Below are positions 14,018 through 38,215 of a stretch of DNA of 64,000 nt, piece after piece. The position numbers and the translations under genes are program-made. The stretch is taken from contig NZ_QNSB01000015.1 of NCBI RefSeq assembly GCF_003315415.1, positions 1 to 64,000 of the forward strand, given 5' to 3'. Below the pieces are notes generated by a model. The model worked only from the letters and a program-made list of their open reading frames with translations. It ran no database searches and was not told the origin of the DNA. Source of the DNA: Brevibacterium sanguinis (GTDB lineage: Bacteria; Actinomycetota; Actinomycetes; Actinomycetales; Brevibacteriaceae). Every line of letters begins with the position of its first letter. The stretch's first letter is position 1.

Positions 14018-14054
14018 TGACCTCTGCCGCAGCCTCGTGCTCGGCAGTGGCGTA

Positions 14055-14083
14055 GAGCCCCGCAGCTTCGTGCTGCGGGGCTC
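14055..14083 (+). terminator. Hairpin terminator after rplL
   Basis: A perfect 12-bp stem (14055-14066 with 14072-14083) and five-base loop TTCGT follow rplL by 37 bases. CTTCCC follows in place of a T-tract. Confidence 0.75.
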
Positions 14084-14146
14084 TTCCCGTGTCACCGATC
14101 AGGAACACCGGCGGCCCGACGGGCAACGCGGGAGATGCGCTCATAC

Positions 14147-14152
14147 TATGAT
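14147..14152 (+). promoter_or_regulatory. -10 hexamer for a leaderless transcript of the three-gene membrane operon
   Basis: TATGAT is five of six to consensus and stands exactly six bases before the GTG at 14159. This favours 14159 over an ATG at 14135, which would lie upstream of the promoter. Confidence 0.55.
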
Positions 14153-14158
14153 GGGGCG

Positions 14159-15409
14159 GTGAATACGACGCCGTCGAGGACTCAGGCCGAGCTGCTCGAG
14201 CGCTTGGCGACCCGTCTGCAGGAGTCCTGGGAGCGCGATCCGCTGGCCATCGAGCCCTCCATCCGGTCCGGCCTCACGACGAACCAGGTGACGGCGCTGG
14301 AGCGTGCCTCCGCCGAAGCGGGCGAATCCGGGCTGCCGCACTTCATCGCCATCGTCCCTCCGCTGCCGGTCCCCGCCCGCAGCTCGGAGGGCTGGAGCCG
14401 CTTCACGGCCGACCTCGCCTTCACGATGCACGAGAAGTCCGATTCCGAGCACACACTCGTCGTCTTCTCCGGGGCGGAGTCCGCCGCCCACACGCTGGCC
14501 TATCTCGTCGACGACAACGGACCGTCCATCCCGACCGGCTCGGATCAGCTGCAGCGCTCCGCCTCCGGCGACTTCCTGCCGGTCGAACTCGCCGTGCCCT
14601 ACCACCTCGGCGTGCTGCAGGCGACCGCGCAGGGAACCGAGCTGCCGTCCCTTCCGGACTTCAACCCGCCGGACGTGGGCGAGGAGGACGACGACTACAT
14701 CGAGGCCACCGGCCTCGATCGCGGGAACCCGGACGGCATCGTCTTCGTCGCGACCGCCGCCGCCACCGTCGGCCTCAGCGCGTGGCTGCTGCGCCGCCGA
14801 TCGAAGTACTCCTGGCGCGCCGCACTGACGACCGCACCCGAACTCACCCGGGAGCACGACCTCGTCCGGAGGGCCGCGCGCACGCTGACCGCCCTGCCGG
14901 AGCCGGCGACGACCGACGATGCCCGGTGGTCGCTGTTCGATCGCGGGCGCCGCGTGCAGGACGCCCTGACGGCGATCATCGACGCCCATCCGCAGTGGGC
15001 GAGCGCTCCCGACTTCTCCCATCGGCACGCCGTCCACGCCCTCACCCGGACGGACGCCTGGGTGCGCAGCGCTCTGCGGACCTCCTCGGCGACGCAGAGG
15101 GGGAAGGCGGCGGGGGAGCCGCAGTTCTGCTTCTTCTTCCCCTCCCATGACCTCGAGATCGAACCCTTCGCCTGGAAGCAGGCGCGGACGACCCTGACCG
15201 TGCTCCTGTGCGCCGCCTGCCGTCGCGACCTCAACGCCGGTCACGATCCGGAGAGCCTCATGGTGCCGAGGAACGAAGGGCTGAGGAAGTCCCTGCCCGT
15301 GCCCTACTTCCAACGTCACGATGCCTATGCGCTCTCGGGATTCGGCAGCTTCGCCAACCTCGAGGACGCCGTGGCCGAGTACGGTGCGCCGGGATCGGAG
15401 CGACGATGA
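14159..15409 (+). CDS. Unrecognised membrane protein A of a three-gene operon, with a C-terminal Cys/His module
   Basis: I do not recognise a named family. The 416-residue protein has an N-terminal domain (about 1-170) with the hydrophobic strand LPHFIAIVPPLP and HTLVVFSG, an acidic linker GEEDDDY, one transmembrane helix (about 190-208) and a basic, helical C-terminal part. Near the C-terminus Cys324, His330, Cys351 and Cys354 form C-x5-H-x20-C-x2-C. Protein C of the operon has the same pattern with identical spacing. The N-terminal strand pattern recalls TPM/YgcG-type domains. Its stop overlaps the next ATG by four bases. GTG start chosen from the promoter spacing. Confidence 0.7.
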   Translation: MNTTPSRTQAELLERLATRLQESWERDPLAIEPSIRSGLTTNQVTALERASAEAGESGLPHFIAIVPPLPVPARSSEGWSRFTADLAFTMHEKSDSEHTLVVFSGAESAAHTLAYLVDDNGPSIPTGSDQLQRSASGDFLPVELAVPYHLGVLQATAQGTELPSLPDFNPPDVGEEDDDYIEATGLDRGNPDGIVFVATAAATVGLSAWLLRRRSKYSWRAALTTAPELTREHDLVRRAARTLTALPEPATTDDARWSLFDRGRRVQDALTAIIDAHPQWASAPDFSHRHAVHALTRTDAWVRSALRTSSATQRGKAAGEPQFCFFFPSHDLEIEPFAWKQARTTLTVLLCAACRRDLNAGHDPESLMVPRNEGLRKSLPVPYFQRHDAYALSGFGSFANLEDAVAEYGAPGSERR

Positions 15410-16296
15410 CGGACCGAGGCCCACTCACCCGCAGAGATGCGGCAGCGCGAAGGACCGCGCGCAGGAGATCGGACCGCCACCCGGGGTGGATCCGCATCGG
15501 CATCGCCCTCGTCGTCCTCGCCGGCGTCGCGCTGGGCTCCACCGCCTACAGCGCCTCGCGGTTCGAGGAGGCGAAGCAGGAGCGCGTGGCGGTCTCGGAG
15601 AGCGACGACGTCCTCGTCGACTCGATCTACTCCGACCGCATCGAAGGCCAGTACGATCCCGACTACGACCGCGCCCGCTACCGGCAGATCACGGCGAGCT
15701 TCGACGACGACGCCATCCATGTCGACGAGTACCTCGCCTTCGAGATGGTCGACGCCGACCTCGACGCGATCCGCGACGAGGTCGAGGGGCTCGAGGTGCC
15801 GATCTACGTCGCCTTCGTCGCGAGCTCCGACATCGACGACGCCGACGGGGACCTCGATCTGACCGCCGCCCGCATCGCCACCGAGCTCGACGACGAGAAG
15901 GCGACCGTGCTCGCCTTCGGCAGCCTCGGCGCGGGCGTCGCGCACAAGGGCGTGGTGCGGGACGTGGAGCGGCCCGACCTCGGAGTGATCAACGAGCCCT
16001 ATTCCACGACGGGGCTGAGCTGGGTCCGCGCGCTCAAGCAGGCCGAGATCTATCACGACGGAGGGATGCTCGGCTCGTACGCCGATGAGAACGGCGACCC
16101 GATCATCGTCAACGAGCGGCCGGACGACCGCCCCCGCGACCTCGAGTACGGGACGGGGTCGGCGATCGCCGGAGCGAGCTTCGGACTGCTCATCGGCCTC
16201 ATCGTCACCGGGACCGGGGCGGCCGTCATCACCGTCGTCCGTCACCACCGGACCGGCGGACGGGACGCCCTGCAGACCACGAACCGAAAGGGCTGA
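15406..16296 (+). CDS. Unrecognised membrane protein B of the operon, two transmembrane helices
   Basis: The 296-residue protein has a basic cytoplasmic N-terminus, a transmembrane helix (about 27-47), an acidic exported domain of about 200 residues and a second helix (about 255-280) before a short basic tail. Inside the exported domain the pattern VPIYVAFVASSD followed by a helix and KATVLAFGS resembles the alpha/beta core of TPM-type domains and parallels segments in proteins A and C. Unlike A and C it lacks the C-terminal cysteines. It starts in an ATGA overlap with gene A and is followed after three bases by gene C, so all three are probably made together as one complex. Confidence 0.7.
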   Translation: MTDRGPLTRRDAAARRTARRRSDRHPGWIRIGIALVVLAGVALGSTAYSASRFEEAKQERVAVSESDDVLVDSIYSDRIEGQYDPDYDRARYRQITASFDDDAIHVDEYLAFEMVDADLDAIRDEVEGLEVPIYVAFVASSDIDDADGDLDLTAARIATELDDEKATVLAFGSLGAGVAHKGVVRDVERPDLGVINEPYSTTGLSWVRALKQAEIYHDGGMLGSYADENGDPIIVNERPDDRPRDLEYGTGSAIAGASFGLLIGLIVTGTGAAVITVVRHHRTGGRDALQTTNRKG

Positions 16297-16299
16297 GCA

Positions 16300-17454
16300 G
16301 TGGACGCACAGACCATCGCCGAGGCGCTGAAGACCGAGCCGTTCCACGTCGACCCGGCGGTCGCCGGCCACCTCGACCCCCGACTGCTGGAGACCGCGAA
16401 GTCGAAGGCCGAGGGCCTCGACTTCGACGTCTACGTCATCGCCGTGCCCGACGACCACATCGACCGCGACCTGCTCGAGCAGATCAAGGTGTTCAACGGC
16501 GGTGAGGGCTCCTTCATCATGGTCAACGGCAAGACCGACCTCGCCGTCGACGTGCACTTCGAGGACGACCACGACCTCCAGATGCAGGTGATGGAGCAGA
16601 TGTCCGTGGGCTACGACACGTGGAGCCACGGCACACCATCGCTGACGAAGCTCAACATCCTCCTCGACCTCTACGCCGATCCGCAGACCGCACCGGACGA
16701 GCTCCCCGGGGAGACCGTGGAGGAGGTGGGGCAGGGCGAGGTCGTCCAGGACACCTCGAGCAGCTTCGCCCCGCTCTTCCTCGGCGGGTCGGTCCTCGTC
16801 CTGGCGCTCGTCATCGCCGGCGTCTTCCTCCTCCGCGGCCTCCGGCAGAGACGGGCGCAGGCGCGCCGGCAGCAGGCGTACCAGCTGCCCGGCGAACTCC
16901 TCCGCAAGGTCGATTCGCTCCAGCGCAGGTCGCTGCGGGAGAGCATCCACGCCGATACCGCGAGCCTCGCCGAGAGACTGGACCGACTGCGACTGCGGAC
17001 CCTCGACGAGACGGATGCGGCCCGGGTCACCCGAGCCCTCGACGCCTATCAGTGGGCGCGGACGATCGTCGACGACGAGACCGCGGACCGCCTCGACCTC
17101 GCCGGTGCGATGGTGCTGCTGCGGCAGGCGGGGCGGGAGATCGCCGAGGTGAGTGAGCACCGGAGGAGGCGCGGTCGCCAGGGCGGTCTCCCGCAGAGCC
17201 TGTGCACGGTCAATCCGCTGCACGGGGAGGCGACGACCACCGCGCGCGTCGACGCCGATGCGCGCAGCGTTCGGGTCCCGGTCTGCGCGGACTGCTCCGC
17301 AGACCTGCGCGAGGGCAACCAGCTGCAGTGGATCTTCGACGGCGACCGGCCCTACGTCGAGGGCTCGAGCATCTGGTCGCAGACGCTGTTCGGCGTCATC
17401 GGCGGGGACCTCGTCACCGCCCTGCAGCGCCGGCGGCCCGACGCGCGGCGCTAG
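16300..17454 (+). CDS. Unrecognised membrane protein C of the operon, with a C-terminal Cys/His module
   Basis: The 384-residue protein has an N-terminal domain containing FDVYVIAVPDDHIDRDLL and SFIMVNGKTDLAVDVHF (TPM-like by pattern), one transmembrane helix (about 160-182), a long helical cytoplasmic region of about 100 residues and a terminal module with Cys302, His308, Cys329 and Cys332, that is C-x5-H-x20-C-x2-C. This would suit a zinc ion. The GTG start at 16300 is three bases past the stop of gene B. Downstream, the metallo-beta-lactamase gene converges on it after 13 bases. Function is unknown. Confidence 0.7.
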   Translation: MDAQTIAEALKTEPFHVDPAVAGHLDPRLLETAKSKAEGLDFDVYVIAVPDDHIDRDLLEQIKVFNGGEGSFIMVNGKTDLAVDVHFEDDHDLQMQVMEQMSVGYDTWSHGTPSLTKLNILLDLYADPQTAPDELPGETVEEVGQGEVVQDTSSSFAPLFLGGSVLVLALVIAGVFLLRGLRQRRAQARRQQAYQLPGELLRKVDSLQRRSLRESIHADTASLAERLDRLRLRTLDETDAARVTRALDAYQWARTIVDDETADRLDLAGAMVLLRQAGREIAEVSEHRRRRGRQGGLPQSLCTVNPLHGEATTTARVDADARSVRVPVCADCSADLREGNQLQWIFDGDRPYVEGSSIWSQTLFGVIGGDLVTALQRRRPDARR

Positions 17455-35410: not shown

Positions 35411-37660
35411 TCAGTGCGCGACGACAGGCCGCTTGCGCTGGCTCGCCGGAGCGCGGTCGAGATCGAAGCGGTCCGCCTCGACGACCTTCGACCAGGCCTT
35501 GGCGAAGTCGACGACGAACTTCTCCTTGGCGTCGTCAGAACCGTACACCTCGGCCAGCGCCCGCAGTTCGGAGTTCGCACCGAAGAGCAGGTCGAAGCGG
35601 CTTCCGGTCCACAGCTTCTCGCCTTCGGGGGAGTAGCACTCGAACACCGTGGCGGTCTCGGACTCCCCGACGGGCTTCCAGATGTTGCCGAGTTCGAGCA
35701 GGTTGACGAAGAAGTCGTTCGTCAGCACGCCCGGGCGGTCGGTGAGGACACCGAGGTCCGAGTCCTCGAAGTTGGCCCCGAGGACGCGCAGTCCGCCGAT
35801 GAGCACGGTCATCTCCGGAGCAGTGAGGCCGAGGAGGTTGGCGCGGTCGAGCAGCAGGAACTCGGCCTTGAGCGGCAGGCCATCGGTGAGGTAGTTGCGG
35901 AATCCGTCGTGAGTCGGCTCCAGGTAGGAGAACGATTCGACGTCGGTCTGCTCCTGGGTGGCATCCCCGCGGCCGGTCGAGACCGGCACGGTGATGTCGA
36001 CACCGGCGGCCTGGGCCGCGGTCTCGACGCCGACGGCTCCGGCGATCGCGACGACGTCGGCGAACGACGCGCCGGTCTGCTCGGCGATGCTCTCGAGCAC
36101 CTCGATGACGTGGGCGAGCTGGGTCGGCTCGTTGGCCTCCCAGCTGCGCTGCGGTTCGAGCCGCAGACGACCGCCGTTGACGCCGCCGCGCAGGTCGGAG
36201 ACACGGTGCGACGACGCCGCCGCCCAGGTGGTCTTGACCAGCTGCGAGACGCTCAGTCCGGACTCGCGCACGGCGGCCTTGACGGCCTCGAGCTGGTCGG
36301 CCGAGAGCGGGGTGCCGGCGGGAACCGGATCCTGCCAGAGGAGCTCCTCGCTGGGTGCCTCGGGGCCGAGGTAGCGCGTGGACGGTCCCATGTCACGGTG
36401 CGTGAGCTTGAACCAGGCACGCGCGAACGCGTCCTCGAAGGCCTGCTGATCGTCCTTGAAACGCCGCGAGATCTTCTCGTAGATGGGGTCGAAGCGCAGC
36501 GCCAGATCAGTCGTGAGCATGCGCGGCTCGCGGCGGCCCTCACCGTGGGCCATCGGCACCATGTCGTCACCGCCGCCGTCGATCGGACGCCACTGGAGGT
36601 GGCCGCCCTCGTTCTCGAAGACCTCCCACTCGTAGGCGAAGAGGATGTGGAAGAACTCGTTGTCCCAGCGGGTCGGGTGGTAGGTCCAGGTGACCTCGAT
36701 GCCCGAGCCGATGGTGTCGTTGCCGTGGCCGGTGCCGAAGTTCGACTTCCAGCCCAGGCCCTGGTCCTCGATCGGAGCGGCCTCGGGGTCGGCTCCCTTG
36801 TGGTCCTCGGGTCCGGCGCCATGGGTCTTGCCGAAGGTGTGCCCGCCGGCGATGAGGGCGACGGTCTCCTCGTCGTTCATCGCCATGCGACCGAAGGTCT
36901 CACGGATGTCATGGGCAGCCTTGACCGGGTCCGGCTCGCCCTCGGGTCCCTCGGGGTTGACGTAGATGAGGCCCATGTGGGTCGCGGCCAGCGGCTTCTG
37001 CAGCTCACGGTTGCCGAAGTAGCGCTTGTCGGTGGCCAGCCACTCGGTCTCGGAGCCCCAGTAGACGTCGTTGTCCGGCTCCCAGACGTCCTTGCGACCG
37101 CCGGCGAAGCCGAAGGTCTTGAATCCCATCGACTCGAGAGCGACGTTTCCGGCGAGGATGAAGAGGTCGGCCCAGGAGATCTTCTTGCCGTACTTCTTCT
37201 TCACGGGCCAGAGCAGACGGCGAGCCTTGTCGAGGCCGACGTTGTCGGGCCAGGAGTTGAGCGGAGCGAAGCGCTGCTGGCCCTCGCTGCCCCCGCCGCG
37301 TCCGTCCATGACCCGGTAGGTTCCGGCGGAGTGCCAGGCCATCCGGATCATGAAGGGACCGTAGTGGCCGAAGTCCGCGGGCCACCAGTCGAGGCTGGTC
37401 TTCTGCAGCTCTTCGAGGTCGGCCTTGAGCGCGTAGTAGTCGAGCTCGTTGAACTCGGCGTCGTAGTCGAAGTCGGGATCCATCGGATCGCCGGCCGGCT
37501 GGTTCTTGGCCAGGATCTTGAGGTTGAGGCGATTGGGCCACCAGTGGCTGTTCGCGTCTCCCTGCACCGGATTGACCAGGCCTGCGGGCGCCTCCTGCGG
37601 CGCCTTGGCCCCTGCGCCGTGGACTACCGGGCAGCCGCCCGTGACGGTGGTGTCGGTCAT
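35411..37660 (-). CDS. katG: Catalase-peroxidase KatG
   Basis: KatG removes hydrogen peroxide using haem and can also act as a peroxidase. The 749-residue protein keeps the distal triad Arg106, Trp109 and His110 (IRMAWHSAG), Tyr233 and Met259 which with Trp109 form the Met-Tyr-Trp crosslink required for catalase activity, and the proximal haem ligand His274 ([10 protein letters not shown]). The second, inactive domain is present, giving normal length. ATG 37660 follows AAGGAA. It lies 96 bases downstream of a Fur-family gene on the same strand, as in the actinobacterial furA-katG operon. Confidence 0.97.
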
Positions 37661-37678
37661 TGTGTTCCTTTCGCTGTC

Positions 37679-37696
37679 GAGCCCGCTTCCGGGCTC
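37679..37696 (-). other. Small hairpin in the furA-katG gap
   Basis: A 7-bp stem (GAGCCCG / CGGGCTC) with a four-base loop lies just ahead of the katG ribosome binding site. It could affect katG translation or mRNA processing between the two genes. Confidence 0.45.
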
Positions 37697-37756
37697 GGAT
37701 GTTGTCAACGCCTGATTGTCGACTTGATGGCCGAAGTGGCGGTGCCGCCGGCCATC

Positions 37757-38215
37757 TCAGACTGCAGAGGGCGATCGCACCGGGTCTGCGTCCGAGCTGG
37801 ACTCGGCACAGTCCGGGCACACTCCCCAGAACGTCACTTCGGCCTGCTCGACGGCGAAACCATGCTCGTGCGAAGGAGTCAGGCACGGAGCCCGCCCGAT
37901 CGTGCAGTCGACATCGACGATGACGCTGCACATTCGGCACACGAGGTGATGATGGTTGTCGCCGACGCGCCGCTCATAGCGCGCGACGGACCCGGACGGC
38001 TGGATGCACCGGACGAGCCCGACTTCGGTGAGAGTATGGAGTGAGTCATACACGGCCTGGTGGGAGACCTCCGGGAGGTCCCGCCGCACCGCGCGGATGA
38101 CGGTCTCGGTGTCGGCGTGCGGGTGGGCGTCCACCGCGCGCAGGACCGCGACCCGCTGTTTGGTCACACGCAGAGAACTGCTCCGCAGGGCAGCGGAGCA
38201 GTCCTCGGCGCGCAT
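37757..38215 (-). CDS. furA: Fur-family peroxide/iron-responsive repressor (FurA-like)
   Basis: The 152-residue protein has an N-terminal winged helix (RVTKQRVAVLRAV; SHQAVYDSLHTL) and a C-terminal metal-binding dimerisation domain with NHHHLVCRMC and CPDC, the two CxxC pairs holding structural zinc. Actinobacterial FurA represses its own gene and the adjacent katG and is inactivated by oxidation. ATG 38215 has GAGGAAGAG upstream; a GTG at 38233 has a poorly placed ribosome binding site. The operator-like palindrome at 38256-38268 is in its promoter. Confidence 0.9.
   Translation of the reverse strand: MRAEDCSAALRSSSLRVTKQRVAVLRAVDAHPHADTETVIRAVRRDLPEVSHQAVYDSLHTLTEVGLVRCIQPSGSVARYERRVGDNHHHLVCRMCSVIVDVDCTIGRAPCLTPSHEHGFAVEQAEVTFWGVCPDCAESSSDADPVRSPSAV

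Follow-up and report, generated by a model that had tools for sequence, protein, structure and literature searches.

Between the ribosomal gene rplL and rpoB on a contig of Brevibacterium sanguinis (NZ_QNSB01000015.1, assembly GCF_003315415.1) lie three closely packed genes, here called A, B and C, whose membrane proteins match no named family in the libraries that were searched, and the question that the locus raises is what kind of system they encode. The window analysed is the first 64,000 nucleotides of that contig, and coordinates are those of its forward strand. The answer proposed here, to which a probability of roughly 45% is assigned, is that A, B and C form a membrane complex of TPM-domain proteins that helps to assemble or stabilise a different membrane complex and docks through cytoplasmic zinc domains. 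The trio is widespread in Actinobacteria and built from a known kind of domain. Computation shows that the three proteins are paralogous, that A and C have a TPM-like fold in their predicted models and that gene order and the ligands of a Cys/His module are conserved. The following architecture is regarded as highly probable (TM, transmembrane; pLDDT, predicted local distance difference test).

14159..15409, + strand: gene A (416 residues), with a TPM-like N-terminal domain, one TM helix, a helical region and a Cys/His module
14189..14653, + strand: TPM-like domain of A, approximately residues 11-165, predicted from structure comparison (5anp Z 9.5, 3ptj Z 9.4, 7tbr Z 8.5)
14735..14791, + strand: TM helix of A, residues 193-211 of 416, negative before and positive after, from hydropathy and charge
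15128..15220, + strand: Cys324-x5-His330-x20-Cys351-x2-Cys354 of A; in the model, strands 334-341 and 344-351 and helix 352-359
15406..16296, + strand: gene B (296 residues), a TM helix, a TPM-like domain and a second TM helix, without a Cys/His module
15676..16044, + strand: TPM-like domain of B, residues 91-213, assigned from profiles only (hhalign against the C family, 97.5%, 117 columns)
16300..17454, + strand: gene C (384 residues), with a TPM-like N-terminal domain, one TM helix, a helical bundle and a Cys/His module
16300..16683, + strand: TPM-like domain of C, residues 1-128 (block pLDDT 78-91; 5anp Z 11.2 over 126 residues)
16774..16830, + strand: TM helix of C, residues 159-177, charge -2 on its N-terminal and +6 on its C-terminal side
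16891..17160, + strand: three-helix cytoplasmic region of C, residues 198-287, in the predicted model
17203..17295, + strand: Cys302-x5-His308-x20-Cys329-x2-Cys332 of C, with a hairpin at 313-328, then helix 330-337

Genes A and B overlap by four bases (ATGA) and B and C are separated by three, as read from the sequence, and the original prediction of a tight operon whose genes overlap or lie three bases apart therefore stands. Its further claim that A and C are paralogous is borne out by profile-profile comparison (hhalign), in which 12 A-type and 20 C-type sequences align over 350 columns (99.2%, E 1.9e-19) with their modules paired. Pairwise BLASTP of A against C gave no meaningful match (best E 3.8), and the view that the surroundings of the two modules differ greatly thus holds for pairwise comparison but not at the profile level. 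Whereas the TPM-like domain of B aligns well with C, its alignment with A is weak (46% over 49 columns); iterative hidden Markov model (HMM) searches nevertheless merge all three into one shared-domain profile, and the N-terminal domains of A, B and C match each other's models. A quick tree was also made from 64 hand-picked module sequences, comprising two modules from each of 28 loci, with gene position deciding in advance which was called A and which C, and eight proteins of a single-gene relative, D, which often carries a Gly-rich tail. Neither A nor C formed one clade (5 and 6 changes against a shuffled mean of 21), part of the mixing stemming from four loci of gene order C-A-B in which the A and C labels are swapped, and the two modules of a locus were never sisters.

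No described system was matched in the libraries and literature searched, as had been supposed. Pfam and NCBIfam gave no family over cut-off for A, B or C, PF20381 (the Rv1476 family) found none of them at E up to 10, and PHROGs and PADLOC gave a single weak match each (spanin, E 0.006, and LeoBC, E 0.05, respectively). The matches to SLATT (E 0.008), CwsA, Rv1733c (E 0.001) and spanin were rejected, being far below cut-off or on a TM stretch. A sequence search of the PDB returned nothing meaningful for A1 or A2, and a phage origin was set aside, with no phage record matching C; a few relatives were found in plasmid records, all labelled only 'hypothetical protein'. The literature searches carried out here found no paper on the A-B-C trio.

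The assignment of a TPM-like fold comes from AlphaFold2 models of A and C, built from alignments of the window and related loci (22 sequences and mean pLDDT 71.2 for A; 29 sequences and 66.7 for C, with block means of 78-91 in its N-terminal domain), and rests on the Z values of VIA-align. All of the first seven ranks for A are TPM-domain entries (5anp 9.5, 3ptj 9.4, 3pvh 9.2, 7tbr 8.5, 2kw7 8.2, 8c7i 7.9 and 4oa3 7.3). With C, the TPM entries stand at ranks 2, 3, 7, 8, 14 and 17 and are the leading matches to the N-terminal domain: 5anp (Z 11.2, 126 residues, 3.3 Å), 2kpt (11.0, at a root-mean-square deviation of 10.9), 8c7i and 7tbr (9.7 each), and 3pvh and 3ptj (9.3 each). Chains of the mycobacterial bcc:aa3 supercomplex also aligned, with Z values of 7.6-8.4 for C (6adq_J, 8.4) and 5.8-6.1 for A. 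Since middling Z values are common according to VIA-align's own note, the weight of the TPM assignment lies in the consistency of the lists. The TPM alpha/beta fold is accordingly seen in the predicted models of A and C, and the earlier suggestion that all three proteins are TPM-like is upheld for these two by fold comparison and for B by profiles only. Matches of C residues 194-298 to a DnaK lid, a uranyl binder and other helix bundles (Z up to 11.3) were taken as generic.

Membrane topology was predicted from simple hydropathy and a charge count, with gene starts outside the window taken from our own gene caller. Both A and C have one TM helix (residues 201-219 of A if counted from an alternative start at 14135), flanked by negative charge before and positive charge after it, a bias that would place the N-terminal domain outside the cell and the Cys/His module inside, and B has two TM helices with the TPM-like domain between them. 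An acidic region precedes the last TM helix in each protein (net charge -20 in A, -24 in B and -24 in C). In the window, C has no room for a signal peptide because an in-frame TGA (16294-16296) lies one codon ahead of its GTG start, and the N-terminus of A is not hydrophobic from either candidate start; relatives in the loci of f85, closest in the tree to the Nocardiopsis locus, and of f21, presumed to be Streptomyces-like partly because of a Streptomyces plasmid match, often have an N-terminal hydrophobic segment. The charge bias and these homologues together support the exported N-terminal domain and inner module that had been predicted.

Near their C-termini, A and C both carry the sequence C-x5-H-x20-C-x2-C. 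This exact pattern occurs in none of the 828 non-family proteins that the fetched loci encode, a set of 268,950 residues in which many proteins are orthologues of one another, and a looser form in only one, L224_7, which HMM searches identify as itself a relative. In the iterative HMM searches, each of the four ligands of A shares its profile column with the corresponding ligand of C. Among the matches listed, the x20 spacing is constant in A of the Brevibacterium operon orthologues but ranges from x20 to x26 in C, and in other families A varies as well (x17 in L226, for example); the matching motif of the original prediction is therefore real, while the identical spacing is not conserved in orthologues and is particular to some species, partly a coincidence. 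In both models the module is predicted, with moderate model confidence, to be a beta-hairpin followed by a helix that starts at the CxxC, which is treble-clef order: the ligand pairs fall on the knuckle and the helix N-terminus around the hairpin in A as in C. Each module most likely holds one zinc through Cys-His-Cys-Cys.

Conservation of the ligands is complete in the intact Brevibacterium operons. Their loci, that of the window included, yield 38 module sequences, 32 of which read CHCC; two broken loci, L087 (interrupted by an insertion element) and L098 (with stops), account for the remaining six, all of them fragments. Another 88 sequences comprise 73 CHCC, among which L235_12 and L236_6 are D proteins, four CHCD (all D), eight in which the His and both C-terminal Cys are lost together, one SHTE (L070_3) and two that are split parts of one protein with a long insert (L069_3). 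The eight retain the first Cys and read CLSx or CRSA. The D group itself gave 24 sequences, 17 CHCD, six CHCC and one incomplete, some genes being counted twice as L146 and L157 overlap. One subunit can lose the site even though the C-like protein next to it retains its own. The four ligands are thus kept wherever the Brevibacterium operon is intact, but a minority of homologues (nine modules) lack the site, an outcome that the original prediction had named as speaking against it.

Two loci are of interest for the fate of the module. In genome G017 (L087:7675-10508) the C gene is broken, shortly past the first Cys of the module, by a 1.2-kb gene whose product resembles an IS110-type transposase. 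Genome G059, from another genus of the family, has the trio together with a second pair of C-like and A-like genes (L070:7670-12922), and in its first C only the His of the site remains, the three Cys being gone.

The family also occurs in other organisms, and the trio recurs in several other actinobacterial families. In 60 genomes of the family Brevibacteriaceae (the window's own included), C found matches in 49, A in 43 and B in 38. A and B are fused in L073, L075, L076 and L080, other genomes have a C-like gene beside an A-like or fused A-B-like gene that has lost the Cys/His site, and G020 and G025 hold remnants only. Of 248 genomes searched across the order, profile A1 matched 19, of which 17 belong to the genus (some matched through D alone) and two, matched weakly, to another family. 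With a Nocardiopsis relative as query, matches of A/C type in part and of D type in part were found in 93 of 345 genomes of the class and 41 of 126 genera (own included). Twenty class-level regions from 19 genomes were picked from the best matches, not at random, and 19 of them contain two module proteins in one cluster with the B domain separate or fused; in L229, B and C were found without A. When A and C types are taken from the module tree, the order is A-B-C in L225-L228, L230-L232 and L240, C-A-B in L233 and L237-L239, and B-C-A in L234-L236, and a B-C fusion is followed by A in L221-L224 (twice in L224). Gaps between the genes are mostly small or negative, except in L224. The conserved, overlapping gene order in so many lineages suggests that A, B and C probably form one complex.

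The relative D was sought across the phylum with the first 212 residues of the copy in the window genome, and matches were found in 22 of 198 genomes, the window's own among them; two weak matches (G298 and G404) overlie an unrelated gene according to the gene calls. D lies near the trio in six of the 20 class-level regions (L226, L228, L231, L232, L235 and L236). In the window genome it lies near a GroEL-like gene on contig C4 (L065:8837-9673) and has a TM helix, a module (CFFNPQHG...PVCAAD) in which Asp replaces the last Cys, and a Gly-rich tail; no TPM-like domain was detected in this protein.

The region ahead of gene A bears on its start and on its expression.

14054..14084, + strand: perfect 12-bp inverted repeat (14054-14065 and 14073-14084), terminator-like, read from the sequence between rplL and the operon
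14147..14152, + strand: TATGAT, putative -10 element six bases upstream of the GTG start of A (leaderless transcript)

A TANNNT hexamer stands six or seven bases ahead of the A start codon in 21 of 22 loci, namely the window and 21 of the 24 loci L161-L184 (L164, L171 and L180 have no usable A call); the exception is L183, which reads TGGTCT. The pattern TANNNT-N6-RTG occurs four times on the + strand of the window. Leaderless transcripts with a 6- or 7-base spacing are common in Actinobacteria. Because the hexamer is conserved at this distance, the start of A is likely the GTG at 14159 and not the ATG at 14135, and the hexamer together with the inverted repeat after rplL suggests transcription of the operon from a promoter of its own, as a leaderless message from 14159. 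The repeat was not among the terminators listed by a terminator scan.

The gene order at the locus is rplL, A, B, C, a gene for a metallo-beta-lactamase-fold protein on the opposite strand, a GNAT acetyltransferase gene and rpoB (rplL and rpoB were named from sequence). Nine of the 20 class-level loci, spanning three family codes (f94, f87 and f85), have on the same strand a biotin carboxylase/acyl-CoA carboxylase alpha gene whose product is 593-600 residues long. In seven of these it adjoins the trio directly upstream, with a 2-base gap in L226 and a 4-base overlap with A in L240; its identity was searched for L226_13, the others being assigned by likeness. A lipoamide-dehydrogenase-like group occurs in eight of the 20 loci and an acyl-CoA-dehydrogenase-like group in six, both named from their N-termini, and beyond these three no non-family group is found in at least four. 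Respiratory gene groups did not recur beside the trio in the 20 loci, where no search dedicated to them was made. The Brevibacterium site has none of the recurring neighbours beside the operon, and gene context therefore does not single out a function. Elsewhere in the window, a presumably Fur-like small protein with a CxxC-containing end is encoded next to what we take to be a KatG-like gene on the same strand (35411-38167).

In the proposed mechanism, three paralogous TPM-fold membrane proteins would together make one complex, each displaying its TPM-like domain outside the membrane; A and C would be single-pass proteins with the N-terminus out and the C-terminus in, and B would have two helices. 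The cytoplasmic parts of A and C would consist of a helical bundle and, after it, a treble-clef-like zinc module. The outer domains may bind the client, and the two cytoplasmic modules may keep the three proteins together or provide a docking site for a cytoplasmic partner. The trio would thereby serve in the assembly, stabilisation or quality control of another complex of the membrane or envelope, roles suggested or reported for Psb32/TLP18.3 at photosystem II, CcoZ at the cbb3 oxidase and PRSAF1/Msmeg_4692 in the bcc:aa3 supercomplex. That the trio has an assembly role is drawn by analogy from such proteins and is put forward tentatively.

A number of results weigh against this proposal. PF04536, the Pfam model for TPM, has no match to A, B or C at E up to 10 and none in 25 same-genus genomes (that of the window included); of 14 genomes from the order's other families, 8 have one. 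Comparison by hhalign with TPM proteins of the order was weak (probability 34% and 37%, E ~4e-4), the set being eight rows from PF04536 loci, one of them (L244) wrongly cut by the gene caller. VIA-align ranks first for C a helix-bundle protein on residues 209-293, Foldseek by itself had no match to the C model at E <=0.001 (its first match was 2kpt, E 0.044), and pLDDT in the module block is moderate at 61-66 in C and 67-78 in A. Strong orthologues of all three, defined by our own cut on bit scores, are found in only 34 of 57 same-genus genomes (own included; the same 34 carry A, B and C), and in four of the 34 a member is broken or truncated (G013, G017, G015, with one stop in A, and G046, with A in two frames). 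The Cys/His site is lost in nine homologous modules outside the intact Brevibacterium operons and must therefore be dispensable for some A or C. There is also no consistent client gene beside the operon, whose neighbours are rplL and rpoB in Brevibacterium and acyl-CoA carboxylase in nine of the 20 class-level loci.

Other functions can be set against the same evidence. The N-out, single-pass, C-in layout with conserved cytoplasmic Cys, and two inner modules per trio, would also suit a transmembrane sensor, in which the outer TPM domains detect the state of the envelope or a ligand and the inner zinc/thiol modules relay it, for instance by regulator release or thiol oxidation; B and a B relative match NCBIfam anti-sigma models, though their scores of 12.5 and 13.5 bits fall far short of the 100-bit cut-off. 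No regulator group, however, recurs in at least four of the 20 class-level loci, where no dedicated search for regulators or sigma factors was made, and a sensor is considered unlikely. The alpha gene that adjoins the trio in seven loci invites the idea of a membrane anchor for a cytoplasmic acyl-CoA carboxylase, tying precursor supply to envelope lipid synthesis, with the helical and zinc modules docking the alpha subunit, but that gene is absent from 11 of the 20 loci, which are not a random sample, and from the rplL-rpoB site of Brevibacterium, making such an anchor improbable. An undescribed three-subunit transmembrane machine of Actinobacteria, linking the assembly of an envelope complex to an enzyme of the cytoplasm, acyl-CoA carboxylase for example, is judged only slightly less improbable. 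Three duplicated outer TPM domains would in that case be joined through single helices to an inner pair of zinc sites, and two of the outer domains (~130-165 residues, within strongly acidic N-terminal tails of ~160-190 residues) would be exported without a signal peptide.

An outer-face hydrolase, with the TPM domains acting as phosphatase or nucleotidase and the inner modules being structural, would accord with the Pfam naming of TPM as a phosphatase family and with an ATPase/ADPase activity of a cold-adapted TPM domain, known here from a title cited by PMC11237479. Passages of PMC12419801 call a phosphatase role of TPM unlikely, and a hydrolase is given little credence. It is also conceivable that the Cys/His set forms a disulphide or is a remnant, as it is lost in nine modules and 17 of 24 D sequences read CHCD. 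Against this, the His and both C-terminal Cys go together in eight of the nine losses, and such joint loss is easier to reconcile with a metal site than with independent residues; a fourth-place Asp might also serve as a metal ligand, and the predicted inner location of the module makes disulphides less likely. This last possibility is very improbable. The trio combines, within a single conserved operon, the poorly understood TPM domain and an inner site of metal type, through which the question of what TPM domains do becomes testable in harmless, genetically tractable actinomycetes; export of large N-terminal domains without a signal, if true, would be of interest for membrane-protein biology.

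Among known systems, treble-clef zinc fingers resemble the module in having two ligands before a beta-hairpin and two at the start of a helix. The usual first knuckle is C-x2-C, whereas that of the trio is C-x5-H, and no solved relative is found by sequence. The Rv1476 family (PF20381) is approached by a D-like protein, L152, which passes the cut-off (28.9 against 26 bits) over its N-terminal domain and TM helix; the match stops before its Cys/His module, and L152 is the sole passer among the relatives scanned.

The TPM domain proteins (PF04536; Psb32/TLP18.3, BA41/BA42, the N-terminal domain of cg2496 and Rhom172_1776) share with A and C the predicted fold of the N-terminal domain and a predicted outside location and membrane anchor; the order of domain then TM helix is that of the TPM proteins of the order compared by hhalign. 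Unlike them, the trio has no PF04536 sequence match, comprises three paralogues in one operon and bears an inner Cys/His module, and A and C of the window lack a signal peptide. The matched bcc:aa3 chains, with 142-145 aligned residues, differ in that they are probably too short to hold both the N-terminal domain and a Cys/His module. Chains J, O and a of these entries are presumably PRSAF1/Msmeg_4692, two names that we take to denote one protein. The titles cited by PMC11237479 place Psb32 and TLP18.3 in photosystem II repair, and TPM domains are proposed to assist the assembly of membrane-linked complexes in parts of PMC11237479 and PMC12419801. According to sections of PMC11189923, lipids lie beside PRSAF1 in the mycobacterial supercomplex. 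Closest to the role envisaged for the trio are PRSAF1/Msmeg_4692 and Campylobacter jejuni CcoZ (Cj1484), both with a TPM-like fold in a membrane protein beside a respiratory complex; as described in portions of PMC8267372, CcoZ resembles Msmeg_4692, and its loss lowers the activity of the cbb3 oxidase without abolishing it.

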